Positions 435-60,700 of a DNA stretch of 64,000 nucleotides are shown piece by piece (positions within the stretch are counted from its first letter, which is position 1; each line of letters opens with the position of its first letter). The translations under genes and the position numbers were made by a program. Origin of the DNA: Antedon mediterranea (lineage: Eukaryota > Echinodermata > Crinoidea > Comatulida > Antedonidae). The notes below the pieces were generated by a model. It did not search any database. It was not told the origin of the DNA and worked only from the letters and a program-made list of their open reading frames with translations. The DNA is taken from the NCBI RefSeq assembly GCF_964355755.1, contig NC_092680.1, positions 6,675,001-6,739,000 of the forward strand, given 5' to 3'.

Positions 435-454
435 GTAATACTCCATGGTAATAC
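435..454. repeat. minimal P-type footprint candidate (7-bp repeats around TCCATG)
   Basis: GTAATAC at 435-441 and again at 448-454 flank only TCCATG, the outer six bases of the right end of the P-like family. It fits an excision footprint whose left terminus was lost. With so little sequence between the repeats chance is possible; the exact 7-bp spacing is what supports it. Confidence 0.4.
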
Positions 455-2094
455 CATCATTTTTCAAAAACAAACAATTCTAATTAATTTTAAAGCAGAC
501 ATTTAAGTGAGTTTTCACTCCTGTGGTGTCTAGACATACAAATTAAACAGATACTGACAAGTACATTAAAGTTGCCAAAACTCACTCTCACCACAACCTA
601 AAACAATCTTAACAATGAATTCGTTTTGCAAGTTTCTAATATTATAAATTACTATTATTAACAGTAATATTTTGCAGTAAAAAGTGCAATAAGTATTTTC
701 GTTTAAATTGATTTTTTTCATCTCCAAGAACAGAGTAATATTGAACATTATGGCATTCAAACCATAAAAATCCAGCATTAAGAAGTTAATACTCTTTCAT
801 CAATTCAGAAGGGACTTCAGATGAACAAAACAAGAAATGAAATTAAGTCTTACATATTTCATTTAAGGAATTATCTGTTTTGTCGATTGGGTTAAAACTC
901 TCATTAAATGAAAAACACAATAATAAAATATGAAAAAGTAATCTGAAAAAAATAGTGAATCTATATCAACGTTCAAAACTGAATGTTCATAAATATTTTT
1001 GAATGTGAAATTTTGACAAAATTGTTCCAAATCCAACAAAATCCTCACAAACTGCATTTACAAAATAAAAGTACTCTCACTCATGCTTTTTACTCAAAAC
1101 GTCCTCTATCTCCAAAAAATAAACTGCACAACTGCCATTCATCTATGTTAGAATATCATTTTTTCAAAATGTCTTTGGGACAGCCCACATTCAGTAATTC
1201 TAGGCCATTTCCATACCTCAAAATTAGATTCCAGAGAATGTGGAGAATGTAATAAAAAAAAATAGGTAGCAGTCTATGTCTGTTTTATATCTATATATAT
1301 ATACATAAGCACAGAAGACACAAGCATTCATATTTCCACTTTCAACTCAATTTATTGTGATCAAGTACAATCTCTAAATTATCAATTTAAATTAGAAATT
1401 GTATCTGCTAATATGATTATTTTCAAATAAATTTAATAAACACTGATCTATGTAGATAATTTGAGGTTGTCACCATCCCCGAATGATGATGGAAACTAGT
1501 ATTATAATAACTGTAATATTGATCATCATTATTAGAAACTAAAAAATTATTCAATAAACATCTACTGCTGTCCAACCACATACAGACATCAATGCATGTA
1601 TGTTATAACTTGCCAGTGGTCTAAAAACATCCAGAAAGTCAGTATTCAAAATTTGTATTCTTTCACAAATTGATCAGTTGGTATTCTTACTCAATCAAAA
1701 AATTAAGATTATTAAAAATTGATTACGAACGAAATGTAATACTGTTAAATAGTCTGCGTAATTGTATTACATCCTCTAAAACCATTTGCAGTCCATGCCA
1801 ATTTCTTATTACGGAGTTTCTTTATGCAACAGAGAAAATAGGCTATATATTGAAGTTTTAAAAGAAAAAAACACAATGAAAAAATGTCATTGGCTATATA
1901 TCTTGAGATAATACAATGAAAAAAGTCTGTCGCTGTGTATTTTGAGCTGTTACGTAACCTATCAACTACACTTTTCATTTGTTATAATACCACAGTGGGC
2001 AAAAATGAAAAGACTTTAGGTTTGTCGGCTAAGTTGAAATAATGCCTCAATTATGATTTGGCTTCCATGTTTTCTTTTCTTTTTTTAAGGCAAA

Positions 2095-2275
2095 CTGCCT
2101 TCTTTGTTCTTTTCTTTTTTCAGGCAAACTGCCAAGGATAGCCATAAGCGAAATCCATCCTGTTCACAAAGCAAACATACACACAACGCCTTTAGAAAAT
2201 ATCCTGACATGTGATGAGATTTGAACCCAATACACTCTGATCGGAAGCCGGGCATCTTAATCATCAAGCTACAAT
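2095..2275 (-). repeat. tRNA-derived SINE, copy 1
   Basis: Read on the minus strand it begins with a tRNA-like head (TAGCTTGATGATTAAGATGC as A-box region, GGGTTCAAATC as B-box), then a body with CACATGTCAGG and a tail ending GGCTATCCTTGGCAGTTTGCC. Body and tail resemble the copies at 58787-58972 and 61637-61812. A short duplicated tail (AGGCAAACTGCC twice) follows at 2087-2131. Confidence 0.6.
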
Positions 2276-3075
2276 CCATGTTCAGAAAATGTTCAATCCA
2301 ATGGTTATCAATGATAGTTAATTTAACATATACAAAACCATGTAGTAGTAAAAAACTGTTACAAAGCCATGTTATGTAATGAATTCTTAGAATCCAGGCC
2401 AACAGGCAAACAAGTTTCTAACAACATCCCATCAAGTGCACATCAACCCATGACATTTGAAGCCTTCTAACTAGAAAAATGCTGCTCGACTCATTGACAG
2501 ATTTAATTATAATTGTTCTTCCTTCATTAAATGATGCTTGTATTGATATTCTATTTAATAAATTAAATTATCAACCATTTTTGTTTAAAAATCAGTAAAC
2601 ATTTTGTGTACGCCCGAAATGCTCTATTTGGTTACGTTGTTAGTTTGTGTAATGTGCATGGGCCATTCAACGGAAAATTTAATATCAGCAGATGTATTCA
2701 TAGACTCTCTTCTCCCAGACGTGATTTAGTGTGTGCGCATGCCCAGTCCAAGTTTACAATTTCCCATTTTTTAGTCTTCGTAAGTAATAGCACCCGCATT
2801 GATACTGTTTTGTAATGATTCCGTCCTGGACTATAACTGCCTAAAGACGCGGCGCGAAAAAATAATGAAATAGAAATACCATATGAATGAACTTCTTTAA
2901 GTACAAACCTTTTAGATGTATAATTTCTACAGGAACATTCTTGTTGATAACTTCTGCTAGACATCACAACATTCTCTTTACTTCTTTGAAAGTTTCTTCC
3001 ACTGGATTTTACAATAAATCTATCTAGAGTTGGTCATTCTTTCTGACTCTGTATACAATAAATTTAGAATTCTCC

Positions 3076-3081
3076 TTTATT
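3076..3081 (-). terminator. candidate polyadenylation signal AATAAA for SMG5
   Basis: TTTATT on the plus strand is AATAAA on the gene strand, 459 bases after the SMG5 stop. It is the first canonical hexamer I noticed downstream and lies in an AT-rich stretch. Other hexamers occur nearer the left edge, so the true cleavage site could be further on. Confidence 0.35.
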
Positions 3082-3539
3082 TTTTATTCTCACAAGATTT
3101 ATATCTGAAGCCAATTATGTATGTATGTTCACTTTGCTCGATGTGTTCATGTATGACCATCATGACTTTATACTTAGTTACATGCATAGTAGTTGTTTTG
3201 TATGTTTTCTTGCAGTAACATCCTTAGAGTTCAATCTTCTGGTTTTGCATATTAAGTTGATATTCTAGTCCATTTTTTTTCTCGACACAATTTCAAAATA
3301 TCTAGTGCTCACTCTGTGTTCTATTTGCAGATGGTCTGTGTTGATCCTCTTGCTACCAGTCATCTCTGTTTCTTCCATTTAGTGAGGACAACTCTTTGAG
3401 TAAACTTCCTTAATTCTGCTCTTTTCCACTAACCTTACCATGAATTAAAGTAAAGGTAAAATATGTAGACATAGCTGAAGTAGTAGTAGCAGCATTCTTT
3501 GACTCAGATCATTCCCTTGGATCCATGCTTCCATATCCG

Positions 3540-3750
3540 TCATCCCTGTGTTTTCCATTTAGCATGGAAAACAGTCACATTCTCAACATTGATTCCTTCA
3601 GATCTTGTGTTCTGGATGAGAGCGTGTAAAATCTCTGGCAAGGTCTGCTCAATCTTGTAGCTGGTGAGGATTGTAACCATTCCACTGGAGTCATACTCGG
3701 AACTCTGATGAGCAAAGTATCGGCAACAGTCCAAGATACCATAGAATGAC
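3540..3750 (-). CDS. SMG5: SMG5 last coding exon, end of PIN domain and stop
   Basis: 211 nt including TGA at 3540-3542. It encodes SFYGILDCCRYFAHQSSEYD, then SSGMVTILTSYKIEQTLPEI and the C-terminus VTVFHAKWKTQG. Human SMG5 ends DFYKQWKEIG. After VTILTS there is no acidic pair (SMG6 has TDD), as expected for an inactive SMG5 PIN domain. The acceptor is AG at 3751-3752. Confidence 0.95.
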
Positions 3751-27700: not shown

Positions 27701-30700
27701 TTACTCCACTTGTCCAAAAGTGAGGCCCATTTACACTTATTCAACTTTAGCTGGCCCCGAGGGCCGCCCGGGGTGGCACTGTACTTGAGCTGGTATTGTT
27801 TTGAACCTCATTCACACTTTCAACAAATAGGAGCCTCAGGCTGATATTATTCTGTTTACACTTTGTTCTCATAGAGCGTATAATGATTTGATTTGCTCTT
27901 TACAGTATACACTTGTCCCACTATTATACAGCAGATACAGTAGCATTCATGATATATAAATAACAATTTTTATCTAGGTTCCTACAACAGGATCTGAACT
28001 CCTTTTCTTGTGTTTTGCTTGTTTTTCTTCTCCCAAGTTATCCTTTTGGATTTGCGTTACTTTGCAGTCACAGTTTAAGAACTTCAAACAAAATGAGCTT
28101 CTAATGTTCCTTATATTGTGCATGAGCGACTGAAATTGTAGGCATTAAACACACTTAAACTAGGATATAATCGGCTTTGACAAAGAAAGCTAAAGTGCAC
28201 ATTGACCATCTTAATTCTTACTTAGCTTTTAAAATGTTAACCTATAGGTAGGCTACATAGAGAGAGAGAGAATTTTTCTTTGGTGTTAAATTTACCACAC
28301 CAATGAAAAATTCACAAAAATTATCATTAGAAACCAGATGAATTTATCAGACGAGTTAATTCATTATAAAAGGCATTAGTGGTCGTGATGTGCATGCATC
28401 CCTAAATAAAAAGCGGTTGTCTAACCATGGAGGTAACTAACCTATCAGAGCATGGAGTAATAATTATTACTAATTATTACTCTATGATCAGAGTTAACAT
28501 TTGATGTACCTCGGAAACCTATCAGATTCTGGCAAGAAATGGTCAAGCACCTACAGTATACCACAAATATTACTCAACTTAAGCTAGTGCATATAACGAA
28601 GCTAAAGACATGGGAATGTGACTTTTGAAAAAACAAGATTAAAAACATTTGGATGGCTCAATTTGGTAGTAGGAGGCACTATGTCCAACAAACGAAACAA
28701 GATGATGAGCATGGAGTCTATTGTAAATCTATACTGTAACTTGGAAAAAAAAACTGGCCAGCAACTAAAACTGGGTTGTAAGGGCAATGTACAGGATGCA
28801 TTATGAGCTTTGCATATAATTTGGATGATCTGTTCATGTATTAATAAATTGGGAAGGATGTATTAGATCCTGCCAACTTTTATTTTCCATCTTAAGTAAA
28901 GACATAGAGGTTCTTTTAATTCAAACACTTTGACACATAATAAGGCTCCAATAGGTTTATTATGAAAACAATTGTATTAATATTGTTTGAGAAGTAAAGT
29001 TATCAACCAAGATTAATACCAATATTCAAACTGATGACTAAAGCTCGGTCTACACTATCAAACTAATTTGTGATGTGCCCAAATATGGTAGTGATATGAC
29101 ACCATCATGTCCATTATGGGCACACCACATTTTTTTTTGTCACATAAGGTTTAATAGTGTAGACAAGGCAAAAGGGTTGACTTACCATAAAACATTGAAT
29201 CATATCAACAAAGGATGTTGTATTTACTGTTTAATTATCATTTTCAATCAAAAATTACTAATTAAGTAATTAAAGTGACATGTGATTTATGATGTGATAA
29301 ATTAATAATTAACTATTTCCTGTTTAAATTTACACATTTTAAAAACTTCAATAACAATTAAAATCACAAAATAAATGGATATTATAACTATTATTTAAAA
29401 AAAGGTATTAATAATAATTACTTTTTATATTAACACCAAGTTTTTACAAAGATTATAAATTATCTTTTTAAAGGATGCTCACTTTTTAATTCACTTTACA
29501 TATTAGTAGAATAATGATTAGAAAACACATATTGTATTTTTCTCCCTCTAACTTATTTAGTCAATGCTAAATCTTAATTATATTTAATTGGTTTGTTTTT
29601 TGTTTTGTTACTTGGCAAAATAGAATTTTGCTAAGTATTACTTGCTTTGTTTGTTAGCACGATAGCGTCCAGAATTATCAAATTATCGCCCTGAATGTTT
29701 GGGTGTATATACTTTAAGAACATGCTTATTGATTTTCAGGAAAATTGATATATTGGTCACATCACAAAAACTTATTATATTCAAATCTGACTTGCATCTT
29801 CCATATGCAAAATTAAATAGCACGCTCTCTGTATTCTTTTAACATGGACCGAAATATCAAGTAGCGAGACGACTCTCTCCAAATATAGTTTTCTCTGAAA
29901 TATATTTTGCCAAGTACTTCACTCAGTTTCTGAGTATTTTTATTTTTTTGTATTTTAAAAACAATTATCGTGTTTTATTCACGGTATCTGTTATTAATTA
30001 GTACAGTATTATGAATCTCATCTCATCAAAACAATCAATTCAATAAATAGGCCTATTAGGCCTATAGCAAGTACTGTACATTCATTTTTTTTCAGTCATT
30101 TCAGTTCTAATTGAATAATCTTAAAGATCTTATAGAAAGTCTTACTCTATTTAAATTCTAAAATTGCAGTTCAAAAAAAAATCAAGTTTATTGATAATCC
30201 TAAACAATGGGGATTCTTAAGTCAAAGCTTTACCAAAAATCACAAAACTTGCATAAAAATTGTATTCTTACAGTCACTCCCAAGTAAACTTTACACAGTA
30301 CAAGCAATGGGCCTAGTGTTTCACTCAACGTCTTTCTATCTGTTCTATGTTTGAGAGAACTGAGCTAGAAATACTCAGTATCTGTGGAGCCAAAACTAAG
30401 TTTATATTTAGCAAATGACTAGCAGATTTTGGACTGCCACACAAATGCTGATTATTCTTAAACAAATTTGTCATTTACCAAAACTTTAGCATTTCCTGCT
30501 ACACAGACGTTCAGTAGCAAAATGCATGTTGAAGAACCGCGGCAGATTTTTTTAAACTTCTGAATTCTTTGATTCTACATTAAAACAAACAATTAAAGAT
30601 GTTTATGATCTTTATCCAAGTACATTATTTATAACTTCAACAAGACAAATTAGGAATAGAGATAAAAAAAGAAAAGAAAAGATATCTGAATTTTCTCCTT

Positions 30701-33700
30701 GTAAAAACAAATTACCGGTGACCAACTTTAATAGTTAAAATATTGGAGTGTGTGCTGAAATCGGATGTATTAAAGTTAAACTGCCAATCATAAAACTACT
30801 AACAAACTACCGTGGGGAGTTCAAGTACATACTCTACGCAGTCTAAAGCATATTTTCCTCCTGTATGAATTGGTATCTTTAATTGGCCCCAACATAACAT
30901 GACATTTCTCTTTCATCACAAGTTAAAAATCACAGTTATAATTACCAAGAAGTATAACTATAGTGGACCTTTTGTGGTAGTTGTCAGGTAGTTTCCTTTC
31001 AAATGACATAGTATCAATCAGTAAGGGCAACACCATGGTGCTGCTGGGCTGTGAAACATTACCAGAGTACAGGGAAACTAATAAGATAAAGAGTATGTAT
31101 AAAGGCTTAAAAACTACCCTACTACAGTAAACTGTTTTTAATTTGAATTTAAATTGAATCAATAATTTCTATTTCAGTTTTGGCAATCAGCATAAAAACT
31201 TGCTATGACAAAAAAGTTGGCCCTCAGATTTTGGCAGCTGGGCCGAGCAACTAGAGGCAGCGATATCTAGGTTGGTTTTAGGTTTCATATACTGTACAGT
31301 ATATTACGTATTATGGGGCTATTGCAAGACAAACCCAGACCTCTGGTGCCTACAGTTTACAGGTTTAATGTTCTCTGTACTATTGTTGAGAAGGTTTTGG
31401 CAAATTGATTTTGAATAGGGACACAGTGTATTGAGCAGACTGTTGAATGGAATCATTCAATATCACTTTAAAGATTGAATGGGTCAAATGCAATTTTGTA
31501 TGATCAACTATTATAGCAAGGATGTATTTAATGCAGTATTTAATGTCCTATATACTATACCTATTGCAACTTGTAAGTTACTTGAATTGCTGGTGTTTTA
31601 AGTGTTTTTTACTTTATGAAAGACGCGATGTAGATTGATCATGCTTGTGTTAAGATTTAAACTTTGTCATAGGATCTGGTTAAGGTTGTTGAAAATCCAC
31701 TTAGGATCGATATGATGGAACATGATGCAAATTAGTCAATACAAGACATAATAAGTCAACCTTTGACCTCATTATGCAAATTAATATATAAATGCATTAC
31801 TGCATCACAGGAAAAACAAGTTTTTATTCAGGATATAAATACTTAATTTGACAAGGTTATCAATTAGCGAAATGAAATAAGTATTTAATGAGTTTTCCAT
31901 TATTATTTTGATGTAGGCCTACTCTAGTCTTAATAGTTTTCTCTTTTTATATGACTTTGCTTGCTTGCTTCAGAATCACCAGTCTTGTTAACAGAAAGTG
32001 ACTTCTAAACACAAGTATGGTTTTTGTCAATAGTATGTTATAATTCATTGAATCGGAAAGGTCAAGGTCTTGAGGTAGATTTGAAAGTGCTGATAATGTA
32101 ATTACATTTCAGCTCTAACATTCTGTTTTTAAATATCTTAATTTTCATGTCATGTTTCGGTTGAAATACATGCGAAGTGAAATAAACGGTACTCGATCAG
32201 GGAACTTGAATCCGGATGTGCTGCTTATGACATTAAATTTGCATGAACAAAATGAAAGGAATGATTATGAACAAAAAAAAAGCAAACATGTTTTCGCAAA
32301 CATAACAAACAACAAAAGTGCGGAAATAGTATGTTAATTGAAAAAAGTACCAATAATTGCTATCTAAAATAACTATGATGTCATTACTGTAGTAGGCATA
32401 ATTAGCTACTTTTTATTTACTTGTAAGCTTTTGATCTTGATGAAATTAGTGAGTCTAACAATATTAAAATCTAACCTTCAATTTTATGACGAGTTACAAA
32501 TATGATTGAAGTGTTTGTATCATATTATGTGAGGTCACATTCTGATTTTGCATAACAACAAACATTCATTTATTGATTTTTAAGCAATGCTGGTTCTAAT
32601 ATAGCAATGCACACTGATGCAGATCCTTGGATGGGGTGGGTGTTTGGTCATCTGCAAAACCACAATTTTGTATAAAAGCAATCCTGTTTTATTTAGGTTT
32701 TTTTTCTGACCTCCCACCAATACTCAAAACAAATCCCCAAGCACTTTCACAATCTCTATCATCACCAATAAATCTTTTCATTCCATACCACTATTAATTT
32801 TTCCATATTTACTGCAACCATGGTGGTATTTTTACCTCCATACTGCAACAAACGAATACTAATAGACAATAGTAATGGGTTTGTATTGGGATGAATCACT
32901 GCATTATTAAACAATTTTATGCCAGATACACTGATGTTTCGTTTGAGTCATACAGAAAAACAACACATTATAATTTTAATATTTGATTTTAAGAATTGCA
33001 GTTAATAATTTGTTGATGATTCAGGCTTAAGAAGAGCATTAACTGCTCAATTGATTGTTTTGCAGGGGAAATACGGAGGTTAATTTTCTTGTTTTAAATT
33101 GCCATCAAGGTTTTTCCAATTATTCAGTTATTATCGTAATACTGCTTTGATAATTTTTTTGTTAAAAAGGCTCTGACTGTTTTGTGTTATACAGTAATCG
33201 CTTTGATTCAGGGGTGGATCTAGCATTTTTTATATAAGACAATAACAACAAACAATAGCCTGTGGACTGGTTTGTGTATTTTTAATTTTGTTCAACTGAA
33301 ATATAGGAGGGAGGGTGGGGGTTGACTGATCCACCTCTCAAAATCTGTCTCTGTGATTGATATTTTGTAAGGGAAGTGTAAAATGACCAAACCATTTTGA
33401 GTTAACACCTTGCCTAAGATGCAAGAATATACACGACTTTTAATCATTTAACAGTAATAGCAGCCCTCCCATGGGAAAAATGATTACCGGTGTACACTTG
33501 CTTATTTATCCTTTCTAATAAAAAGAAGACTATATCTAAGCACCATGGGACTTTTGATACAAAATCACATTTCAAATAATATAATTATTATGAACATTTT
33601 GCCATAATTTTAGAACATCAATATTTTTTTGGATAATACAACATGTGTTTTTAACTAAATATCAAATTAGAATGGGTCAATAGTAATACTCGGGAGGGAA

Positions 33701-36700
33701 GTTTTATGACATCCAAATTTGTATGTCACTCCAGTGAGAATAATTAGTCTGGTCAGATTAAACAATCTAGCGTTAGTTATCAAACTTGTTATGAAATAAT
33801 CCAGCATTCAAAGTGTGAAGCTAATCAAGCGGTGAATGGATTGCGGTCGAGGCAATGACATGATCAAAAACGTGTAATGGTTCGCAGGACTTTACTGTCA
33901 CAGACAGATCGTAGCCAACCAGTATCAACAGGAAGGTATAGTGGCAGAAGAATGGACAGAACGACAACAAAATTAGCTTCCTTTGAATTAATTGTGAAGG
34001 ATCTTACGTGCCTGTATATGGGTTCAATGATTTACTCAACGTTTCAAGAGTATGCTAGTTAAGCGACCGAAGTTAAGCGACGTTGGGCCTGGTTAGAGCT
34101 TGGATGGGAGACCATCTGGGAATAACGGGTGCTGTATACGGAGCTGGGGTCCCGTTAGGCATTTGAAATCAGCACTGCTGACTCTTATGGCAGCCTCTGC
34201 ATCTAGTATCTGCCTCAGACCTCTGGTCAAGGTGGGTACTGGACGAGAGAAGCCCTTGATCAATGTTAGGACCAATCAAGGTGCTTTAAACAGTCCTGGC
34301 TTTGTTTGTATCAAACCTGTTAGTGGCGGTAATTATCGCTGTTGGTTTTGATTAAATAAAATAAAAAATTAACTTTACTTAAAGTTGTTATTTAATTTCA
34401 TTTACAGTATTTAATTTAGAAAGATCTATTTATTTAGTTTGAAGCATTGGGTTAATAGAAGGATACACAACTGCAACAATAGTAAACCAGATGCTCATAT
34501 ATTGATACAGTACAAATAAAATAGAACCCCTATTTAGTGGACACTTCACATGAAACAAACAAGAAGAAATATATGTTTTAACGCTACGACTAACCCCTAT
34601 TAAGGCGACACTTTCTTGTGAATCTGAATTGGATGATGACAAAATAACTACGACCAACCCCTGCTAGAGGACACCCTTAATAGGGAATGCTTTGTTGGGT
34701 CCCTTTAATTATTAGGGGTCCTATAGTACTATAGATTTACAGTTAATGAATTAAATTGAATTTGTTAGATCTCTGTAATTTCTTTGTTATTGTATATCAA
34801 ATGTAGATCAACTAACCAAATTTCACTTGTACCTTGTTGTTAAAATGACAATAAATTCTATCGTATCATATTGAAATTATTTAACTTTAAATAATCTCCA
34901 TAGTGCACTAAAATAGTTGTTAATATAGTTTATTATGTATGTCTTGAAATTATGGCCTACAGTGATTATATTTTGAACAGACCTCATCCGCATAATAAAT
35001 AAAATATCAGTAACATTCTAGTATTTATATTATCCTATAAATACATTTTATGGGATTTAAATTTACTATTTTTATCATTTGTTCATAATGTCATTAATAT
35101 AATATTATTCGTCTCAAATTGTTTTTGAAAATTGGGGTCAAGTGTTCTTATAAAATGTATTCTTACATTTTTATAAAAAAAGTATATTTTGTCGCCAAAT
35201 TGATAATATAACCAGATGACTAACAGTTTATCAAATAAAATCTGAGACAATGTCAATTTTATCATTTTGATTGACTGACATGTCTCATTTTAAAAATACA
35301 TTTGGAGACATCTTTGTGAACAATAGATTTCTATGTGATGTACAATAATATACTGATATCAAGATCTTATTGACTCTTTTAGCTTTTTAGAGTGTTTATT
35401 ATAAGAAGACATTTTATATGGTCAAAAATGTATTTTTTTTTATTATTGTTGGTTTAATTTCCTTCCAATTAGGGTGGGGCTGAGGTTGATTCACTCACTT
35501 CCCATCAAAAATTTTTTTTATCTGTGTTTACGATATCTGACCACATAGATAGACATATATTTCTTCCATTTTCAAACATCAAATTCTGTACACCCTCGTT
35601 ATGGGGTATGTTCAGACTCACTGTATTTTAAGTAGCATTTTATATGCGGCGTACACATTTTTGTGTCTGAACATTGAGTAAAGAATAATTCTTTACTCCA
35701 TGGTCTGAAATAGACTGCTGATTAGTGTTAGACATCTAAAGCTAGCAGCACAAAGCATATAATGATGCTAAATCTGTGATTTTACCCTTCAGTTGAACGC
35801 CACCAATAAAAAGACATGACTACGAATATGAATATTAGACCAACAGCATACCTGTACCCTAGGCTTATGACCGAGCATTAGCTAAACATCAAATATATTA
35901 TAGGTTTTCAATTTTACAAGAACAGTACACTTTGCGTTGGCGATATGATTTTTGTAAATTAAATACATTAATCAGATAATTTTCAGTTATGTTTGAAATC
36001 ACTGCAAGTACCTTTGTCCTGGTAACTATATGCACATACAGTTTTATAGTTTCAAATGACCCCTAATAATAATGGAATAGTCCAATGAATATTGATCATT
36101 AAATTATCAAAGGAGCCCAATCATATGTGTGATGTAAATTAAATTTACACACCTATCATCAACATCACACAGATATACACATTCCCATAGACAGACACCT
36201 GCAGGCAAACCTGACCAAACATAGCCTAGCCTTCACAGAAAATAGCAACTGTCAAGATATATAAGCCCCTGCGGAGAACACAGCATTCCACAGCCTAGCA
36301 TGAATATAATTTGTCTTCAGGAGTGTTTATGTTATTATTACTAGTCTTTTGCAGTTGTTGATGGGGCTGTGGTGACTTTGGCTAGCAAGGCATTCTGTAT
36401 GCAGGGGGGCTTGGCTTCACTCCAGTTGCGCAGTTGACAGACAGAAAACTGAGCAGTTGATATTCATCTCTCCAGGGAGAAGTTATCTGGCCTCATTAAA
36501 ATAACAGACACTATAGTGATAAAAAACACAACAGCTAGGCAAGATCAAATGACTCAGGCGTTAGGCTATAATCAAAACATGGAACATGAACCAGCACGAT
36601 CTTATATATATGAAAAGGAAACTCTTAATATAATTCTCTCGGGTATACAGCCTATCCTTTACAATCTGAGGCAGGGTGGAAACAATTTACTGATGTTTTA

Positions 36701-42700: not shown

Positions 42701-45700
42701 GCCCTTTTATTAGTTTTAATCAGTGGTGACTAAGTTGTATATTTATATACAAGGAAAATTATATAATAAAAATGAATAAAAAATCATTTATTTAAACCAA
42801 ATTACTGTATGCCTAACTAGTGCAGTTCAGATTAAATAGGCAAAGGTTAAGCATTTGATAAATTGATGTTTATTTTAGTATGGTATATTTGATGTCTTTG
42901 AGTAAATAAGATAAAGTTGTTTGCCTATCTAAATATTAGCACAGAAAAGACAATATATTATCACTTTGTAAACAATATGTGTTGGTGACATTAAAAAAAA
43001 TGTAACAATATTAATATAAAAAAGTGTAAAGTCAAGTTAATTAACATTACGTCCTGTTTTTGCTGCGAAAAAATAACTGGATTTTACCATATGAATGAAT
43101 TAATTTAGTACCAACTTGAGACCAGTCAAAAATAAATGAGGGAGTGAGAAAGAAGGGAATGGGGAAATGGAAGAAAGGAGGAGGGAGGGAAATGGAGGGG
43201 GAAAAGGAAAAGGGAGGGAGAAAAGGAAAAGGGAGGGAAAGGGGAGGAAGGGAAAGAGAGGGGGGAAAGGAAAAGGGAGGGAGAAAAGGAAAAGGGAGGG
43301 AGAAAAGGAAAAGGGAGGGAGAAAAGGAAAAGGGAGGGAAAGGGGAGGGAGGGAAAGAGAGGGGGAAAAGGAAAAGGGAGGGAGAAAAGGAAAAGGGAGG
43401 GAGAAAAGGAAAAGGGAGGGAGAAAAGGAAAAGGGAGGGAAAGGGGAGGGAGGGAAAGAGAGGGAGAAAAGGAAAAGGGAGGGAGAAAAGGAAAAGGGAG
43501 GGAGAAAAGGAAAAGGGAGGGAAAGGGGAGGGAGGGAAAGAGAGGGGGAAAAGGAAAAGGGAGGGAGAAAAGGAAAAGGGAGAGAAAGGGGAGGGAGGGA
43601 AAGAGAGGGGGAAAAGGAAAAGGGAGGGAGAAAAGGAAAAGGGAGGGAAAGCGGAGGGAGGGAAAGGGAGGGAGAAAAGGAAAAGGGAGGGAGAAAAGGA
43701 AAAGGGAGGGAGAAAAGGAAAAGGGAGGGAAAGGGGAGGGAGGGAAAGGGAGAAGGGAGGGAATAGAGGGAAAGGAACTAAGGGAAGGAAAAGAGAGGGA
43801 ATGGAGGGAAAGGGGATGGAGGGAAAAAGAGGGGGAAAAGGAAAAGGGAGGGAAAGGGGAGGGAGGGAAAGGGAGAAGGGAGGGAATAGAGGGAAAGGAA
43901 CTAAGGGAAGGAAAAGAGAGGGAATGGAGGGAAAGGGGATGGAGGGAAAAAGAGGGGGAAAAGGAAAAGGGAGGGAAAGGGGAGGGAGGGAAAGGGAGAA
44001 GGGAGGGAATGGAGGGAAAGGGACTAAGGGAAGGAAAAGAGAGGGAATGGAGGGAAAGGGAGGGGATGGAAAGGAAGAAGGGAGGGAAAGAATACTAGAT
44101 GGAGAGGAAGGAGTAAAAAGTGGAAGAGGTGTTATGGCTTTCAATGGGATGGATTTAAAAATACAGTAGACACAGTAGTCATTTTCATGAATAAACTACT
44201 AAGTGTTGTACTTTTAAAAGAGGAAGGCATATGGCATAAAGACTGTGTTGACAACAGATAACTGACAGACTATGCTTCAGATCAGATTACAGTTTTCTAT
44301 AACCCCAATCTCGTTTCCGTTTCGTACATATATCAACTGAGAGTCATTCTAGTCCTATTCAACAACGTGAAACAATGATAGAAAGTACAAAGTCCAAATG
44401 TCAGACGTGAAGATTTGAATTACAAAAATATTGTCATTGTTATCCACGTAATCCATCAGGGTTTGTTGCTATTAACATGGAGGAATTACTCCTCCTATAA
44501 AACAACAACTTTTCATAATGTTTATGGTTACTGATTTACTGAATTAGTCTAAACGACCCAATTTGCTGATGGGCTATATTAACTTCAATCTCTTCACACT
44601 GATAACTAATGATATAATATGTTATCGCCATACAATTACATCTTATCAACATGGCTGTTCAATCTCTTATACAAATATTAAGCTTATCATCAGCAGAATG
44701 CATCTGAAATTATAATTTTGGTCTAACATGTGATATTTACATTGTAAATAACCTGAGTGACTGTATACACAGTAGGCAAACAATTAATCACTATACAAAT
44801 ACCGGTTTGGAACTACAAAATAAATGACATTTTCAGTAGTGTACAGAGTAAACTGTTGATATAGATTAGAACAAACATGTTGAAATCTAATGATATTTAT
44901 TGGTAAACACTGTACCATCATAACTAAGCTAACAATGTTATTATACTAGCCTCTATTTTCTGATATATTACTGTTTGTTTGTTGATGATCGTTTACATTT
45001 TAATCTATTATATCATGCATTTGTTTGTATAGAGAGGATTTTTATGGCCTTATTCACTTTTGTACTGCTCACAGACAAATAGGTGTATACTTTATTCTCG
45101 TTGTTTGTCATAAAAGCCTACCAGATGTTGTTAATTGTTTAGTATATGATGGATCTCATGGTTTAGTATGACCAACATAATAATGGTGTTTTGGTTTTGT
45201 ATTTTTCACATTTTAACTTTTTCATCAATTATACGGGGATGTGTATTGAACAGTGAGATTCGCTACATAAACCTTGTCTACACTTTCAAACTAGTTTGAC
45301 AGAAAAACGTAGTATGCCCAAATATGGTCGTTATCATATCCATATATGGGTACATCATATTTTGTTTTCACATAGAGATCAATAGGAGTGTAGACAGAGC
45401 GTAAGAATAAATCAATTATTAATCAAGTTATGTTTAGGCAGATTGATCATGCAATGCTTGTGCTACGAACAGAATAGGACAGTTTCAATATGCGACTACT
45501 CAGTGTGACCACGGAGCAGCATGTATTGTGTGTCGTCACATAAACCTACAATCTTCCAAAGTGTGTCGAGAAATTGAGTAAAGAGAATGATGCTCGAATG
45601 TCACTGCATGTGCACAATGAAACTTAACATTTAAAAAGAAAATTGTCTGCAATTTAGCAGGTCTACCTCCTTACTATTACATAAAAGCTATATATGTACT

Positions 45701-48700: not shown

Positions 48701-51700
48701 TCCTCCATTCAGTTTTGTCTAAAGCTCCTCATTTGAAATTCAGAACCTGAAACTAGCACCTTTTTTTTTTTGACCTAATGTTATATAAACTTTGCAATGC
48801 CAGAAGGCTTGATTTACGACTTAAATGTATTTCATTGAAACCTAACTAAATGTGATGATAGATGATACAGTCCTCAGTACATAAATTAACATAGCATACA
48901 AATAATGAATGTTTGTGAATTGAATAGGGACTATATTTTATGGGTTTAATAGATCATTCAGGCTTCCAATGAATTTAAACATTCTGCCTATTCAATGAAT
49001 ACAAAACATTCATTATTATTCGAAAGTAAACTTTTATTCAATTAATCTGCAAGTTGAATCACATGTTCAATACTAGGTAAGAGGCTATATCGTTTTAAAA
49101 AAAAAGCAGGCTTGGATTTTGATTGTGGAGTACATATAGGCAGCACACTATAGGCTGATTTTAAAAGAAAAAAAGTCACCAGCCTTGTGTTGCAGACAAT
49201 TCCCATGCAGTAAAACCATGGAGGTATTTTATACCTCCATGGTAAAACCATGGAGGTATAAAAAAGAAGGAGATTCAACTAGCTAATAGAGATTAAAATG
49301 CTGTGTGCTATATGAACTATGACTGACTTCCTCGGACGCTGATTGGCTCGCTTAGATGAGTTCAAAAAAGCCGCCTTCCGCTCTGCCACGCGGGACGTCG
49401 CCTTTCATCGTTGTCAGTGCAGCCGGTCGTTCATCGCTTGTTACAAGGCCCCTTAGCATTTAAGTCGCCCTGAACATGTATTTTAAACACTTTTTTGGTT
49501 GTATTAGCTTCTAGAGAGGGCTTGTGGGGTCAGAGTTTAACATATCCGAAACCATATTGAATTTAGAAAGCCATTACATTTTATTAGAAGAAAATCGAGT
49601 AATATTTACCAAAATAACCGTAAGTTTAAGTTTTTATGGTTTTTATATTATATATCGATAACACGATAACCTCGGAAAATGATTTTTTTTAGTAAATATT
49701 ATTTAATAATTTAGGTTTCAAACCGTGAAAATCCCGACCGTGTACACGCGTGTATATTTTCTCTACATGCATTGCAACATAGGGCTTTTTTCTCTCGGCG
49801 AGTCGCTTGTTGGTTCATCAAGTGTGACGTAATCAACGGGTTAGGAAGATTATGCTGGGGCTAGGCCTAGAGTATCCTTGTTTGATATTATGATTCGTGA
49901 ACCTATTCAACAATGTTATTAATATAAATTATAGTTATAGGCTAATTTATATTATAATTAATACAATGGTGAACCTAATTAATGGTTGTATTGTTAAAAA
50001 CTATATTAAAGCAAATGTTAATACAGTACAATTAATGTTTATTGTGTTCCTCTACAGTTAACTCTTTTGTAAAACTTACAAAAGGAATTGCTTGCTACTG
50101 ATGGTGTGGACTATGTGTTGAGTGAAAAACTAAACCAAGATCCTCTTGAGGAATACTTTAGCAAACAGAGAGGATGTGGAGGAAGAAATGAAAACCCAAC
50201 AGTTCATCAATTCCAACATAATGCATTGACACTCTACAAGTTGCAGGAGCCAGAAGTGTAACTGGTTCAATCCACTCCAACACCAGGAAGTCGCGTTTTA
50301 GCATAGACAGTACCCCATTCCCAAAAAGAACGAAAACCATAAATAATATTAATAAAGTACAAATATAATAATAATTTCATGAACACCTTTTATGTATTTA
50401 CTGAACTGTATAGAAAATATTTATATTGTGAATAAATTGGAAATTCTTTCTTTAAGTTAGTCATTATTTTTAAGTTTCTTTCTTAAGGGTTTTTCACCCT
50501 TCTTTCCGACTGATGCATCTTTCTTTTTTCTTTCCATCATATATACGGTGGTAAAAGCCTTGCATCTGATGTCTATATAACATCCAATAACTTTGTTAAA
50601 TAAAGTAGACACTACTACCTCATTAACATTATCCCCAATCAACCGTTCCCATGCTAATTTAATGACAGGCGAATCAAGGGCTGAAGTAAGTTTGTCCTTT
50701 AAATTTAAACCACAAAGTTCTGTAATTTTTGTGGAGGACAAAATGGGTTTTACCTCGCATTCCAGCCACCTAAAAAATAAAAATGAATCATTATTTATTT
50801 GAAATAGGCCTCCTCTGTTAATTTTTGTAATCCAGTCTTTACTATAATCTAAAAATGACATTTTATCATTGTTGTCTTCAATTTCTAATTTCCTTAATAC
50901 ATCAATAGATAAATTAACTAGATTGTTATTTGGAAATCTTCTCTAAAAGCGTAATAATTTATGCGGAATATAGCCAGCCATGTATCTTAATGTTTGTTGC
51001 TCTTCCTTGGTTACCTCTACCTGTGGCGGTTCATTTGCAGCAGCATTCTCATACGGCCCAATTTGCCTTAACAACAACTCTTCTACAATTGCCTCGCTTG
51101 CCATTTGGAATAAAAAATTTGCAGCAATATCACAGTCAACTAAACCTAAAAATTGATTTGAGTTTTCATTTATGCGAAAAGTTTGAAAGTTTCTACACGC
51201 TGCGTCTAACCCTTCTGATGCAGTTCTTTTAGTGTTCGCTACAGTTGCTGTCTCCCATAAAGTATTGACAAGTTTGTTTGCAACATCCTGAATATCTTTT
51301 GACCGCAACTCGACCACTGCATTGTTTATTGCTGTTGCCATCTTTGGATTTAACTGCAGCATAGGGTCTTCCAAGAACTTTGTTAAATGAGTGATTAACA
51401 ATTTCCAAAGAATCAGCTAATGCATTTTCAAGTAGATATTGGCTCTTCCATTTTATCGGCTTCTTTTTTGCAGCTGTGAATTATTTTAAAATAAATCATA
51501 AATTAAAATGTCTTTCCCATAAAATTAAAAAGTTAAATTCAATCTGACCATCCCTAATATTTTAATTTCCTGTGCAAAATACAATGTAGTGGGCGACGTA
51601 GGGCTGAAATATCTATTCCCTGTATTTCGGTAATTTTAAATTTAATTATTTGGAAAATGTGTCAACAGCAAAATCCATGCATGAATTATAAAATGTACAG

Positions 51701-54700
51701 TAGTAGTAAATAGCTTTATTTTCTATTAGAGTAATTAATTAGTTAGGCCTATATATACCATCTATGCTCATTAATACCATGGAGGTATACCTCCATGTTA
51801 ATACTCACCTTTTTCCGGTTTATTGTTAGTAGTTGATTCGCTGGGCCTACTAGCGTTCGTATAATTGCTTGGCCCACTTCGCACTTCCACGTTTCTTCGG
51901 CGGCTAGGCCTGAACTCGCGCAATTCGTATGGAACCATCTGACTTCGCAATCTTTACCGTTGCAGGCTATTGTCTCTTCCGTCGATGGACAGTTACATAT
52001 ACAGATATTTTTCACTTTTTCGGTGCCTACTTCGGTATTTATTTCTTCAAATTCTGCTAATAATTCTTTTGTTAACAACTCATCAAACTCCATCACATCA
52101 ATTTTTGTAGAATAAAAGAATACAGTGTTGCTTTTTTGCACTGCCGGCCGCGCGCGCTAGCTACTCGACTCACACACAACGCTCATGTGCTCGAGGTCAA
52201 GCGGTTTGCTTCCGGTTTTACAATTAATTATACGACCTTTTCGTGACATATTGACCTTGTACGCCACGCAGTGCTTATGTGCGATACCGTTTATAATTAC
52301 TCCCTTATCTGTTAAACATTCGGCGGCTGCAATGAATACATCAAAGGAGACAAGCTAGTTGAATCTCCTTCTTTTTTATACCTCCATGGTAAAACTAATA
52401 CTGAATGGCATTATGTGATTCAAAAATCAGTAGTGATTGCAATATCTGCAGTAAAGGAAAAAATGTTTAACATTAAATGAGAAAAACATTCAAAAACCAA
52501 CAGAGGGCAGTACACATCATTTTAAGTTAGGAAATGGACTTGGGAGAAAATTTAAGCACATTCTCAAGAAGATGCTTGGTGCCGTCTTTTGTTCCGATGC
52601 CTTTGATTGAATGTTCATTGCCATTCACGGAATGTAGAGTTTAATATGCTGCTTTATTTTTGTCTTCTTTGTACAAATATGACATACCACCAGTTGTATA
52701 TTTTAATAAATTTTTAAACACCACAGACAGCAAACAGAAATTGTTTCTCTGTCACGAAACGCATCAGAATTTGCACCTTTTATTGACATAGACAGGAAAA
52801 TGAACAGATGATGTTTGAGAATATTATAACAGGTGAGGTGGTGTAAGCTGTGTAGACAACTGTTGGCAATCTACGTAAACATTAAGTTGGTTACACCCAG
52901 TTTACTATAAAACCAAATCAACTGAAGGAATTATGAAATAATCAAAGCTGGTTTGTCAACTTGTAACAGTCACCTTGATATTGAAAAAAAAAACTGTTTT
53001 TTTTTTTTGGTAAGAAAACAATTTCTTTTCAATAACATTTCCAAAGTAGGGTATTCTAAACAAACACCATTTCTGAAATTCTGTTTTTCTTTTCTATCTA
53101 GATATTAGCAGCATAAAAAGTGATGGTAAACTACTTTAAAAATAGATTAAAAAACGATTTTTGCTGATTTTATGGGGGGGGGGGGGGGGGGAAGCCCTAT
53201 ATCTGCTGAGTAGCAAAACATCATTTTTAAATGGAATACATTCACACAAACAAACAGGAGGGGTGGGTATGTTATTGACTGACATTGAAATAGTAGTACT
53301 ATAGAATTCCACATCCAATTAAAACAAAAATCCTCTTTATGAACTACTACTGCTAGGTACCAACTGCAAGCACAATGTATTTTAAACCAGAACCACCAAC
53401 AGTCACGTAGAAAGCTTAAAAGCCCAATGCAGTCAGCTATGAGGTATCAATCCTGCCACAAATCAATTTATATTGGAATGTCTTTTAAGACATTTATGAG
53501 AAATCAGTTTCCTGCTTTCTCAAACATAATTCATACATTTGACGAATACATTTTCTACATTTCCATTGGATTTCTTACAAAAGACATTTCAGAATGTCTT
53601 TCTGAATGTTATAAATCAAGTGCTATTTTTACAACATAGGTGTAAACAAACCTATTATTTATTCAGAATAGCAATTTTGTTATTATACTTAAGAAGTAGT
53701 GCTGTTTTACTTTAAGAGTAAAATGATGTACGTTACTGTACCTGAACATACCATAAAAGCCCCTAGGGGTGCAATATCAAGCAGAATGTCTCAGTTACAT
53801 TTTTCTCTCTTGCATATATTTCCAATTTCAAATCAAATTTAGGTTTAAAGAATTTTACAAGGCAGACATTTAGGCTTTAAGTCACATTTGATAGGCATAA
53901 TAATTGACTCACATTCATAAGATGTCATCATTGAAAATTGTATCAGAGTGGGCTTAAAAATTTCCCAGGATATCTCCGGATAATACAGCAATTAATCATT
54001 CCTTTATAACTAGTTTTTAATGACTGTTAGTCTAGATTTTGCAGCTTTTGAAGTCGAAATTGACCCGGCAAATTAAAGGGTACAAATCATTTCTTAGTGA
54101 GTGAACATTATATAAAAGAAAGAGTTTTATGAGAATTCTATGCAAATCATGCAACTTTCGCGCACAAATTCAAATTGTTATCTGGTTCCGTTCAGTTTTT
54201 GTGCAACTGTTGATTAGATTTGAGGATATTCTGGTTCTTTTGTCCCGCTAGCATGTTCCGTGGTTATCCACATTCTTCCAATTAAAAGACAGTGACTTAA
54301 TTAATCAATTTTTGAACCTGGAAAATGTCCTCCGGCACTACAATTCAATTACGTACAAACCTGAAGCACTCTAGATTGATTGGCCCAGAGGAGCTAACTA
54401 AATAGAAGTTCATTTAAATCAAATATGTTAAGATTTTGCCTTATGAAACTATCAAACTTTATATGAAAAAAAATGTGATGTGCCCATATATGGAAACGAC
54501 GATGTCATATCACTACCATATTTGGACACATCACTACCATATTTGAGCACATCACACTTTTTTGGTAAAACTAATTTGATAGTGTAGACAGAATTTTAAA
54601 TCAAAGCCAATTCAAGAGCATGAAATGCAGAGGAGCATAAATTATGAATAGAATTCATAGTTGATGATACTTTCACACAGGATGTACTGCCTAGCCTAGA

Positions 54701-57700
54701 AACATTATTGATGGCCAAATAATTGTGTTAAGAAAGTATGACTTTAAGTTTGTTGACAAGCCACTTTTATTAAGTACACACAAATAATACATTAGTCTTT
54801 CATGAGGTGCTTATTATAATAATATTAAAAAATTAATGTACAGTATTGATGATCATAAACAGATTCTTATTACGTCATTATGGTCAACCACAATACACCA
54901 CCTACCATGAGAGAGAGCATTGATTAGCATATTAATAATTAATAAATTAATGTACACGGTACCAGTAGCTGTACATCCTATCTGAAGGATGAAAGAATGT
55001 GAGAAGAAGTATTTGCCTATGATACAAGCAATATGACAAAGACAGATCTCAAACTGATAATACCATCATATCACTGATATACCATACCATTACACAATAT
55101 CGCTCTCTAAAATTAGTATTTTAAGATACAACTTTAGTAGGTATGAAAGGAGAGTGAACACAATTAACCATAATTTCTATGAAAACATCGTTTTAAATTT
55201 CACAGAACATAAGAAACTTGAGCTCAAACTATTTTCTATCTATTACTTGCTTGCCACAAAGTTGGCACAAAAACTTGTTGTCGATTTTAATGAACTGAAC
55301 AAAACCGAAATCAGCTTCGAACACAAATGTTTACAGTTAATACCGCAGGCTTAGGCTGAGCTTACTATGGGGACAACAGAGGTTACAAGGAATCCACAAA
55401 TTAAAACAGCCTGGTTTGATCCTACCACAGTCAGCCTGAGGAAATTGTGATTTATATTTAGTCATTAGAACCCGTATTGTTTCCTTGAGACAAAAGAAGG
55501 TCAAGCGAGGTCAGATGAACTAGTTGAAACATGACAGGTTGTTATACGATGTGATTTATGGAAATTATACAGTGACCAAAATAATTAGATTAATTCTAGA
55601 CTTCCTTTAGATGTCTCATCTAAATTATGATGGAAGTTGAGGATAGCTGACAATAACCTCAAACGTACATACTCCAATTAATTGACCCTTTTAGCCATGT
55701 ACTAATACTATTCTCAAAAATGTGTTTAAAATTGTTTATAAAGTACTTTACATTACACTATTTTGAAATAATACTCCTGAAATATTAAATGTTGGTCTTA
55801 TACTTGATTGACAAATACAAAAATGATGGAATAATCTTTTCAGGCATCTTCAGTGAGGTCTTACAGAATTAACATCGATGTAACACAGTGGTATCTGCTG
55901 AATGCGCATATAAGTCTAACTAACGTGTGAAAGCATTTTAAATAGGTTAGAGATATTCAGAAGATATACATCAATTGTTACATTTTGTTACATTTGTGTT
56001 GTACGTGTGAATTGAGTTTATATGCAAGAGTACTACGAGCATAATATTTAGTATAAAAATGTCTTTAAATACATGTCATTGATCTGGAATTTATACTAAT
56101 TAATGTAACTATATAAACAGAATAAGTCACTAAAAAAGGGTGTTTAGACAAAACATCATGTGTTGATGCGTGGATCGGCAAGAAAAAATAGAAAACTATT
56201 ATTGATATTAGGACATGTATTTAACTTCTACTGTCTACCCTTTGTTCTTCTATGTATTTATATGCAATCACTGAGGTTGTTAAACTTTTAGAGATAATGA
56301 ACATGATGTACAATCTAATACCAATCTATACACATACTAATTCTACTAGTAAATAACAACCATATTCCATCTAAAATAACTGCAGATACACCTTATAACT
56401 TATACATAATGTACAGTACTGACTACAAATCATGTACCATAACCCGCGTTTGTCGCGCGTGTAAAATATGTGTAATTGCCGCGTGCCTGTATTTACCGTG
56501 TGGACCATGACGTCATCACTTTGTAGCTTTTTACTGGTAAAATATGGAACTCCCGGTACGACGCCCGCGACAACACACACGTGGGTATCTGTTTGTTTCT
56601 ATTGTTTAGGCCTACCATCATATGTAATCTGAACCCGCCCGTTACTGTATGCAACAAAGTTTATTTTTTCTCTATTGTTAGGCAAACAATAAATAAGAAA
56701 GTTTATAGAATTCATGTAAATTGTTTTTCATCGGGGTTTTGTTTAGAGTTCACGTCGTATCATTTTATATAATGTGAGGCTTACAGAGAAGTGTACAACA
56801 GGGAGGCTAGAATAGAGAGCTACTAATACTATACCGTATACCTACTAAGCCCCCGACAACAAAAAAACATATTTAGCGATCTTTAATAGGTCAATAAATA
56901 GCCTAATAATAGTAATATTAAAAAATGATGTTTCCTTGTATTTTCCTAACCGTAAGCCAAATATTTAAATTAAAATACAGAGCTAGTGTTTATTTTAGGC
57001 CAAGAAGTACAGTATGTATTCGCTCAAATAACTGTGACTGTGAATGGGTTTTCCGCCGCTCGGTGTAGAAAGTTAAATGATTACGTTCTTCTAACACGTT
57101 TATTAAATGTCTTTTAGTATATTTCTATCTAACATGTCTGCATTGTATACTTGCTTTATGAATTCTCTGCTTATGTAACGACTTAATAAGTTGCTCAATT
57201 GACGTTTATAAAGCCGATATTTGTCTGACATCAGCCCATGTTTATAATGAAAACAAAACAAGGTTCCGAAAATGGTACAGTCCAAAATGGGGTGTGCAAT
57301 TAAATAATATCAACGTAAACATGCGCACGGTATCAGGGCTGTAATTATAAGAGAACTGATTTCCCCTGGACGGGAAATGGTAAAAACTTGTATTTATTCG
57401 ACCTCGCTTCTCTCTCGCTCTGGCTGTGTGCGGAGGATCGCTCCAACGTGGTTTCGTGGAGCGATTAATGGTCCAGTCCGTAACAGGGGTGTACATTGTT
57501 TACCGCGCTAAATACATGCATGTCAATACTGGCGTTGTAATACTATATAAATGTTTTCCTCCCCGACTGGGAATGGTAAAATCTTTATGTTATTATTTGG
57601 CCTAGCAACTGTGTGTACCTGTGTGAACTCCATGGATGAACTCTACAACGTGGTGTGTACAGAAAGTACGTCATTCGGCCACCAGTGACGATCGTGTTTT

Positions 57701-60700
57701 GAAAGATATTGTTGGGTCTTTTCTACCTTGTTTTTTTAATGAGTTTTCTCAAATACTTAATAAATATGACTTAAAAATATATATAAACAAACCCTGAAAG
57801 CAAACTAGGCCTAGAATAGTAGTACTGTACTCCCGGTAGTAGGCCTACTAACTAGGCCTAGTATTTTCAATCACAGACATAGCTTAATTGCATCATGGAG
57901 GTTTTTACCTTCATTATTGCAGTATGATAAATAAATCGATTTTTTATTTCAAATAGGCCTATATTTTGTTATATAAAATGCTGTTATCCTGTACTGTAAT
58001 TCCAGTTATTGTCTGTTTGATAATAATAATATATATGAACAAAACATCAACAAATTATAAATACAGTTCGCTGCAGTTGAATTACTCAATGCAGTAATGC
58101 ATGAGTGAATATGGACAGTATTGTTAGTACCTAATTACACGCGAGTCACGCGTTTTTCACACCCGTGTAAAATGTGTGGGCTTGGTATATGATATGTAGT
58201 CAGTACTGTATGCAAATGACATTGTCTATTTTCTCTATGCATCAACAAACACCTGACATTGGTACACCTGTGATACAGGCTGATTCTATTACATGGCTGC
58301 CTGACCTCAATCGCCTATCAATAAACCACTTAAGATCTAAAGATAACAATATGTAAATCATACAAAAACAGTTGTCTTTTTTATCTGGTTTTCATGCATC
58401 ATCACCTATTACTTAACAAGAGAATCAATAATGATGAACGCATTTCAAGATAACAATCTATGATGCCTGTTGTCACATGTCCTGTCTTAGGATAAATAAT
58501 TATCATATGTTTGTCACTAGCTTTATCCACCCTAACCAATCATCTATCACTCTATAATTACAAATATTGGAAAGAAAAGGTAAGATAAATCGACATACCT
58601 GGTTCACAGATTTGTTTCTCTCGAGGAAGCTGGTTAAGAAGAAGTGCCAAGCGAGCCCACAATGTATGTGAACTCTAATTTGTTAAAGAAAAAATAAAAA
58701 AATTACTTTAATCATGGTCTCAAAATCTTTTAAAATAGTGGAAAGAGGACAAGAAATAAGAAACAATGTATTTTTTTTTTTTACCATATTTATTGAGGGA
58801 CCCTCAGAGGTTCACAAGACCAACATATGCACAAGATGCTCTACATAAACAAAGTCTTATTACACGTCTTTGGGAGTGGATTTGTAATTTTGTCCTTAGA
58901 AAAAATCCTGACATGTGACGGGACTTGAGTGGTAGCCAAGCATCATAACCACCAAGCCACAACTCCACTCTTTAGGGTAATATTTCAAATATGATGTTAT
59001 GTTAGTTTATGATGGCGATGGTTGCATGTAGCGTGTAGGACACTACAGTAAATAAAGATCATGATCATCAAAAAGGATGATTATGCATCAGTAGTGGTCC
59101 TCATACATTATATTATATCTATATATAAATTTTACCAATAACATGAAAAACAATAAATATGTATTACCTGAGCAGTTGTGGTAATAATATCTGAATGTCC
59201 TCTCAGCCAATCACAAAACAGCTTTACTATTGGTAACAACTCCTCATTTGCTAATACAGATATCAATTTCTGGACAGAATCTTCTTTATCTAACAGTAAA
59301 AACACACATTCATTCGAACGGTGAGAAATTTCATGATTTGTACTAACTACTTTTGCTACTACTACTTAAAGAGCCCTGAGAGTGGATTTGTTGAAAAAAA
59401 GAAACACAAATTTCATAACTAACTACTAATAACTACTGCACATGTGGTACTGTGGCTAGAGGTTTCAGTGTAAAACATTTGAGAAATGACCTAAACAAGT
59501 TCATACCACCTAAAAGATGCTATTCTCAAATTTTTTTTAAATGCACCATATATTTTAGTTTAAACAGACCTTCATTCAGAGGTTTCTCTTTAGGATCATC
59601 TTCCTTGACATCAACTGGTTCACTTTTACCTTCGACTTCTGACCTGTCATTCTCATAAGCTTCAAAGGATGGAGCAAGACGGATGTTGCGTTTTAAGAAG
59701 CTAGTGCTTGGATTCTGAGAGAAAAGCTGTGATGACAGATCTTTAAGGTTCTGTGCAATAGTGGCAGGACTCCCTCTAGCACCTGCAGGCATCTGCTCCA
59801 CAGTAATCTGAGAGGTCATCTTCACATCAGGGCTCTTATTTTCCTTTGATTTAGATATCTCAAAATCTTGACTGTCCATCAGAAAATCACTATCAGAACC
59901 AGATGAAAATGGAGCGCCCTCACTTGCCACATCGCCATCCGAAGTACTGAAATCTGATTGACTGCTGATACTGAGCTCTCCCTCGCTGAGATCAAATTGG
60001 TCACTAGATGGCTTGCTTGATTGCATGGATCGTGCACGGCGTCTGCGTAAGGACTTACTCACTTGTTTTTTGCCATCTCTAGGAATGGCTTTAGTTGGGC
60101 TACCGTCTTGGCTTTGTGATGGAGTTAATGTATTGGTTGGGCTTGCAGGCCCAGACTTCACAATTTCATCATCCTCGTCATCCTCATCAGTTGCATCTGA
60201 AAATATTAACTTCATAATTGAATCAAATTACTTACATTCATTAATTAATTTAGCAAATCACATCATTCCAATTTTCCAATTCCAATGAATTGATTCAATG
60301 TCAAAGCTCAAAATTGAGTAATAAAAATAAACATACAATAAATTAACATTTATTTTTGTTAGTTTCATCCCATATGCATATCAAGAAAATTCAATGATTT
60401 AAAAAATTTATCAAATTAATTTTAATACTATAAATAATTATTCAAATTAAACAGGTTACTACCAAATAGATACATTAGAAGTCACTAACGATAAAACAAA
60501 ATAAGCTTAAGTCTAGGTTTATTTCTTACTTGAATTCATTCATTTTAATTCATAATTTTAACAAAAGTGAATTTCCACCAAGCCTATGTAATTTTTTACT
60601 AATTACAAACAAATAGTTACCTGAAATGTGTACATTACTGTCATAAGCACTAGGTGAACTAGGATGTTGTACATCATACAGCGCCCCCTGGATTCTCATA

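Follow-up and report, generated by a model that had tools for sequence, protein, structure and literature searches.

Among the described transposons of the P superfamily, the Drosophila P transposase cuts one strand 17 bp inside the inverted repeat, binds internal sites and acts on inverted repeats of 31 bp (PMC7776569), and 17-nt 3′ tails are left on the donor ends (PMC2895639). In the junctions tabulated for the Drosophila melanogaster construct P{wa}, the two copies of the target-site duplication (TSD) mostly enclose remnants of one tail or of both, with microhomology or insertions at the join (PMC2895639, Table 1). When that table is scored, 43 of 63 isolates show CATG at both ends of an inner sequence of at least 16 bp (range 16-44 bp, median 30), whereas the other 20 lack this both-end pattern; three further isolates with deletions past the TSD were excluded from the 63, and the flies were Rad51-deficient, with end joining as the remaining route (PMC2895639). 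Other members of the superfamily duplicate 7 bp at preferred palindromic targets, as reported for Galileo (GTANTAC, GTATTAC; PMC4168063) and for 1360 (GTTNAAC; PMC3276498). Titles and abstract openings among the matches listed in our literature search describe no natural P footprints, and no title among the matches listed concerned crinoid transposons.

We analysed a 64-kb stretch of the genome of the crinoid Antedon mediterranea, hereafter the window, in which short palindromes lie between direct repeats of 7 bp. In our judgment these palindromes are best explained as end-joining footprints of excised P-superfamily DNA transposons with 7-bp TSDs (probability roughly 0.9). This reading was advanced in a first-pass annotation of the same DNA as P-type excision, and it is supported here by an element with the same tips, 7-bp TSDs and a P-type exon, by the preference evident in the TSDs and by the likeness to the Drosophila junctions. 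The five sites with exact repeats and the weaker candidates, as we read them, are as follows.

28444..28493, unstranded: excision footprint, ATCAGAG-36 bp-ATCAGAG, tip variant CATGGAGTAAT
32812..32849, unstranded: excision footprint, CTGCAAC-24 bp-CTGCAAC
35665..35709, unstranded: excision footprint, GTCTGAA-31 bp-GTCTGAA, tip variant CATGGAGTAAAG
49210..49248, unstranded: excision footprint, GTAAAAC-25 bp-GTAAAAC, adjoining a 3140-bp element
51771..51804, unstranded: excision footprint, TTAATAC-20 bp-TTAATAC, nested in the 3140-bp element in an intron of its accessory gene
57887..57922, unstranded: probable older footprint, TSD 6/7 (ATTGCAT/ATTGCAG), inner 22 bp, kept outside the statistics
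44469..44501, unstranded: possible footprint, TSD 6/7 (CTATTAA/CTATAAA), inner 19 bp, kept outside the statistics
435..454, unstranded: possible one-tip footprint, GTAATAC-TCCATG-GTAATAC, exact repeat
28419..28441, unstranded: possible footprint of a single tip, its right TSD shortened, GTCTAAC-CATGGAGGTAA-CTAAC, chosen by eye

Six sites had originally been ranked as strong; five of them carry exact 7-bp repeats, and the sixth, at 57887, matches at only six of seven positions. Of the two given a lower rank, 435 has one tip only and 44469 a 6/7 repeat. The inner lengths of 20-36 bp at the exact sites amount to a maximum of 18 per side. In each of the five exact sites the ends form a near-palindrome of CATGG or CATTG with its complement, and the half-lengths range from 10 to 18 nt, values compatible with a stagger of about 17 nt. 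Two of the repeats can be drawn longer: that at 32812 as 9 bp (TACTGCAAC), which shortens the inside, and that at 49210 to 10 bp, since the first letters of the adjoining element are likewise CAT. The 28444 footprint contains an inner 10-bp direct repeat, AATTATTACT-AATTATTACT, and is directly preceded by the one-tip candidate at 28419..28441. A further CATGG-like palindrome, CATTGGGTATATTAATACTCCATG at 47888-47911, has flanks that match at 2/7 positions and is either a decayed scar or a chance occurrence.

The pattern of palindromes between repeats is confirmed as real within the window. In a motif-free test, exact repeats were sought around 12-60 bp whose ten terminal pairs include eight or more that are complementary, and the counts were compared with those in 100 dinucleotide shuffles. 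At a repeat length of 7 bp this recovered precisely the five exact sites, all five with CATGG or CATTG tips; the shuffles averaged 0.65 and peaked at 3. Counts also exceeded the shuffle mean at every other length tried, namely 5 bp (24 vs 7.24), 6 bp (7 vs 2.11), 8 bp (2 vs 0.13) and 9 bp (1 vs 0.03), so that an excess by itself is not peculiar to 7; at 6, 8 and 9 bp the sites have non-CATGG tips, except for one that lies inside the 49210 footprint. A tip test that specified CATGG/CCATG ends, with one mismatch permitted in each, found five sites at 7 bp, where 300 shuffles averaged 0.067 and never exceeded 1; at other lengths it found four at 4 bp and one at 5 bp, and zero CATGG two-tip palindromes with repeats of 6, 8, 9 or 10 bp in the 64-kb window. 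The cleanest control is a set of ten CATGG-like palindromes chosen blind to their flanks, five of which have flanks identical at 7/7 positions while the rest match at 1, 2, 2, 2 and 2 of 7.

The bare count of CATGG..CCATG was dropped as evidence (3 vs a mean of 1.29, reached in 8/100 shuffles); the motif without repeats is not significant, and the evidence is thus carried by the repeats. When five-base tips alone are considered, 15/1024 words, CATGG among them, reach at least 5 sites at a repeat length of 7, and the top eight are A/T-rich. One-tip candidates with exact 7-bp repeats number three, against a mean of 0.22 and a maximum of 2 in 300 shuffles: that at 435 is retained as possible, that at 14038 is probably due to chance since its repeat is 10 bp long, and that at 57624-57643 (TSD TGAACTC) is also probably due to chance, as it departs from the target consensus described below. 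The window was selected on account of this very pattern, so the density of scars in it cannot be extrapolated.

All five exact TSDs conform to NTNNNAN (T second, A sixth), a combination that has a frequency of 0.111 in the window and 0.121 beside CATG (n=536); the pattern was spotted post hoc, and the bound for any two positions being fixed in five is 0.0065. The weaker candidates at 435, 44469, 57887 and 28419 likewise fit, and that at 57624 does not. A complete GT...AC occurs in one of the five exact TSDs (GTAAAAC) and in the weaker 435 and 28419 candidates. As far as sequence can tell, the TSDs of the putative footprints agree with the palindromic preference of the 7-bp elements of the P superfamily. 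The 8-bp target of Drosophila P, GTCCGGAC, has an outline like NTNNNAN, and a similar outline is also seen in GTNCGNAC, the target of the hAT element hobo (both PMC3276498).

The set of footprints first proposed omitted a larger element that adjoins the 49210 footprint and holds the 51771 footprint. Its components are listed here.

49249..52388, plus strand: parent-type element of the P superfamily, 3140 bp, apparently internally deleted
49242..49248, unstranded: left TSD GTAAAAC of the element, which is also the right TSD of footprint 49210
52389..52395, unstranded: right TSD GTAAAAC of the element
50073..50261, plus strand: P-type transposase exon, C-terminal RNase H part, 62-aa ORF LNQDPLEEYF..GGRNENPT
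50460..52093, minus strand: broken accessory gene of two exons (52093 to ~51807; ~51474 to 50460), delineated by tblastn of P0001 and by ORFs

The element ends in 36-bp terminal inverted repeats that are 100% identical (CATGGAGGTATAAAAAAG) and begin with CA(T) as in the P superfamily; the repeat search gave the perfect inverted pair as 49247-49284 / 52353-52390, 38 bp counting the flanking AC/GT. Its TSD of 7 bp was recovered at a repeat length of 7 and was absent at 8. Membership of the P superfamily calls for a TSD of 7 or 8 bp, and 7 bp is found at the element and at the five footprints; the 8-bp TSD of hAT elements is found neither at the element nor at the CATGG two-tip palindromes. The 50073-50261 ORF matches the Pfam family PF21789 (TNP-like RNase H, C-terminal) with an E value of 1.8e-9 and, among solved structures with E up to 1, only the Drosophila P transposase (6P5A/6PE2, E 1.9e-4). 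The glutamate of its LNQDPLE motif aligns to position 531 of the 6P5A chain, and E531 is the third catalytic residue of the Drosophila enzyme (PMC8230255). By these sequence features the element is assigned to the P superfamily, with one 62-aa ORF as the transposase basis. A scan of the longer open reading frames of the 3140-bp copy revealed neither a THAP domain nor the first two Asp, and the copy, in which one transposase exon was recognised, is apparently internally deleted. A check for the 11-12-bp subterminal inverted repeats expected in the superfamily returned a 13-nt pair at 49359/52130, 92% alike and no better than the others among the best 25 of 28 pairs.

Two footprints can be derived from the ends of this element without any filler. 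Footprint 49210 is an exact join of parent ends, with 10+15 or 11+14 nt retained, and footprint 51771 is an exact join with 8-12 nt per side and a 4-bp TATA microhomology. Footprints 28444, 32812 and 35665 match the parent ends over only ~7-11 nt with one mismatch, so that sister subfamilies must be assumed; parents of these tip variants were not found in the 64-kb window. Between 36 and 3140 bp, a search for exact repeats of 7 or 8 bp with CATGGAG-like tips (one mismatch) found no spans. A 635-bp span at 62828-63462 is flanked by the 8-bp repeat ATAGTAAA, matching exactly, but its ends show inversion at CATG alone; it is another element or chance.

From 49210 to 52395, GTAAAAC occurs three times in register (GTAAAAC-footprint-GTAAAAC-element-GTAAAAC), and the same target is used twice. 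One element may have arrived and departed, leaving the footprint, after which a second would have entered the right TSD copy; alternatively, two elements may have sat side by side, one of which departed.

The scar reading is favored because identical 7-bp TSDs, parent-like tips, two exact end joins and a P-transposase exon occur together. Mechanistically, the transposase would place its cut in one strand at the border of the element and that in the opposite strand ~17 nt inside, leaving on each flank a 3′ tail that may retain up to ~17 nt of the element tip; the host would then fill, trim and join both tails to give the order TSD, tip, inverted tip, TSD, and joining may sometimes proceed via microhomology (TATA at 51771) or templated filler (28444). 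The inner repeat of AATTATTACT at 28444 suggests such templated filler. The longest scar, that of 36 bp at 28444, is 2 bp above 2 x 17 (34) and therefore needs either filler or an 18-nt stagger.

In form the scars resemble the P{wa} junctions, which share the order of TSD, up to 17 nt per end with optional microhomology or templated filler, and TSD, as well as tips that start with CATG; the five exact scars (20-36 bp) fall inside the Drosophila inner-length range of 16-44 bp. The P{wa} junctions differ in their 8-bp TSD, in being laboratory-made and in their tips (CATGATGAAATAACATA vs CATGGAGGTATAAAAAA here) (PMC2895639). Galileo and 1360 resemble the crinoid sites in having 7-bp TSDs of palindromic preference, represented here by GTAAAAC, GTAATAC, TTAATAC and CTGCAAC; however, both are known from flies, the likeness concerns their TSDs, and the inverted repeats of Galileo are long (575-610 bp in two breakpoint-junction copies; PMC2775673). 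Zebrafish Pdre2/THAP9 shares a tip that begins with CAT and a P-type transposase, but has a 13-bp terminal inverted repeat (CATACCTGTCAAC) and an 8-bp TSD, and the accessible part of the report makes no mention of an accessory gene (PMC10983969).

Since each palindrome has inverted ends and TSDs like those of an insertion, the palindromes might themselves be minimal mobile elements, tiny MITEs made of two tips that inserted as such and duplicated 7 bp. Copies of a mobile unit would be expected to share a single sequence, however, and the five inner sequences and lengths are all different; moreover, at 20-36 bp they would be devoid of the internal sites and 31-bp repeats that the Drosophila transposase needs (PMC7776569), and we regard this origin as very improbable. 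Extreme internal deletion through aborted gap repair after excision, as opposed to direct end joining, has a precedent in wild-type flies, in which incomplete synthesis followed by end joining accounts for most of the repair products recovered (PMC2895639). Break points would then be expected anywhere in the element, yet all five lie at most 18 nt from an end, and the absence of exact-repeat spans with CATGGAG-like tips between 36 and 3140 bp also counts against gap repair, which is accordingly very unlikely.

An origin from another superfamily, or from hairpins that arose by chance, is in our estimation extremely unlikely. The hAT element hobo, which prefers NTNNNNAN targets, brings the superfamily into consideration through the outline that its targets share with the TSDs here (PMC3276498), but the TSD length is 7 and not 8, and the element with footprint-like tips holds a P-type transposase exon. 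Chance hairpins are rendered unlikely by the 300-shuffle tip test together with the split among flank-blind palindromes. Direct end joining after excision of P-superfamily elements thus remains our preferred explanation of the five exact sites.

The least familiar part of the element is the accessory gene on the opposite strand, which is convergent with the transposase exon. Its copy in the window has lost a short internal stretch and also bears a frameshift and a stop. The closest relative, P0001, is an uncharacterized 443-aa protein of A. mediterranea that matches the read-through at 91%; in tblastn against the window three pieces of P0001 aligned at 96% each and a fourth, of 44 aa and spanning the frameshift, at 82%, the first four rows, which carry no query name, being taken as those of P0001. 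Footprint 51771 lies at the start of the intron and leaves GTGAGT intact. Remote relatives comprise a protein of the sponge Corticium candelabrum and three further proteins. Matches of P0001 to PHD fingers (E 0.22 and 0.49) fall far under the Pfam cut-off, and the predicted structure of the accessory protein has a mean pLDDT of 51. A search with a profile of this family, which scored the best 7998 candidates by shared words, returned three matches, all already known. Titles and abstract openings among the matches listed describe no P elements with a PHD finger or a second gene.

Several other features were observed in the window. A family of short elements, whose inverted ends are of the type GTCTACACTATCAAACT, is represented six times, at ~20673-20826, 29038-29162, 45266-45400, 46627-46730, 54448-54605 and 62639-62808. 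Another repeat occurs in two copies, 34066-34307 and 48356-48598, that are 85-93% alike in pieces; we presume that it resembles 5S rRNA and is perhaps a SINE, and it had no Rfam match at the gathering score. A purine-rich minisatellite with units of 19/25/82/123 bp and strong strand skew extends over 43147-44090, and several short arrays of repeated ATACCGTAT-like units are found at 13111-13879. A tRNA gene (Rfam, 43.2 bits) is located at 10562-10632 on the plus strand, and a 233-aa host-like ORF, acidic and serine-rich, at 59526-60227 on the minus strand has one relative, with 47% identity across 42% of the query.

Tentatively, these sites may represent a deuterostome branch of the P superfamily with 7-bp TSDs, in which the transposase would retain the long, ~17-nt stagger of Drosophila P, frequent excision would have left the crinoid genome dense in scars and a conserved, weakly PHD-finger-like second gene on the opposite strand, with remote sponge relatives, would aid transposition; we consider this combination possible but rather doubtful. 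Footprints as short as these are easily missed by repeat annotation, and yet each would testify to an excision event, and its length would show where the cuts fell. Genome-wide counts of footprints would measure the departures of P elements and would test, before any biochemistry, whether the long stagger of the Drosophila type is general to the superfamily. The same footprints would also constitute a record of break repair in crinoids, including the use of microhomology and templated filler.
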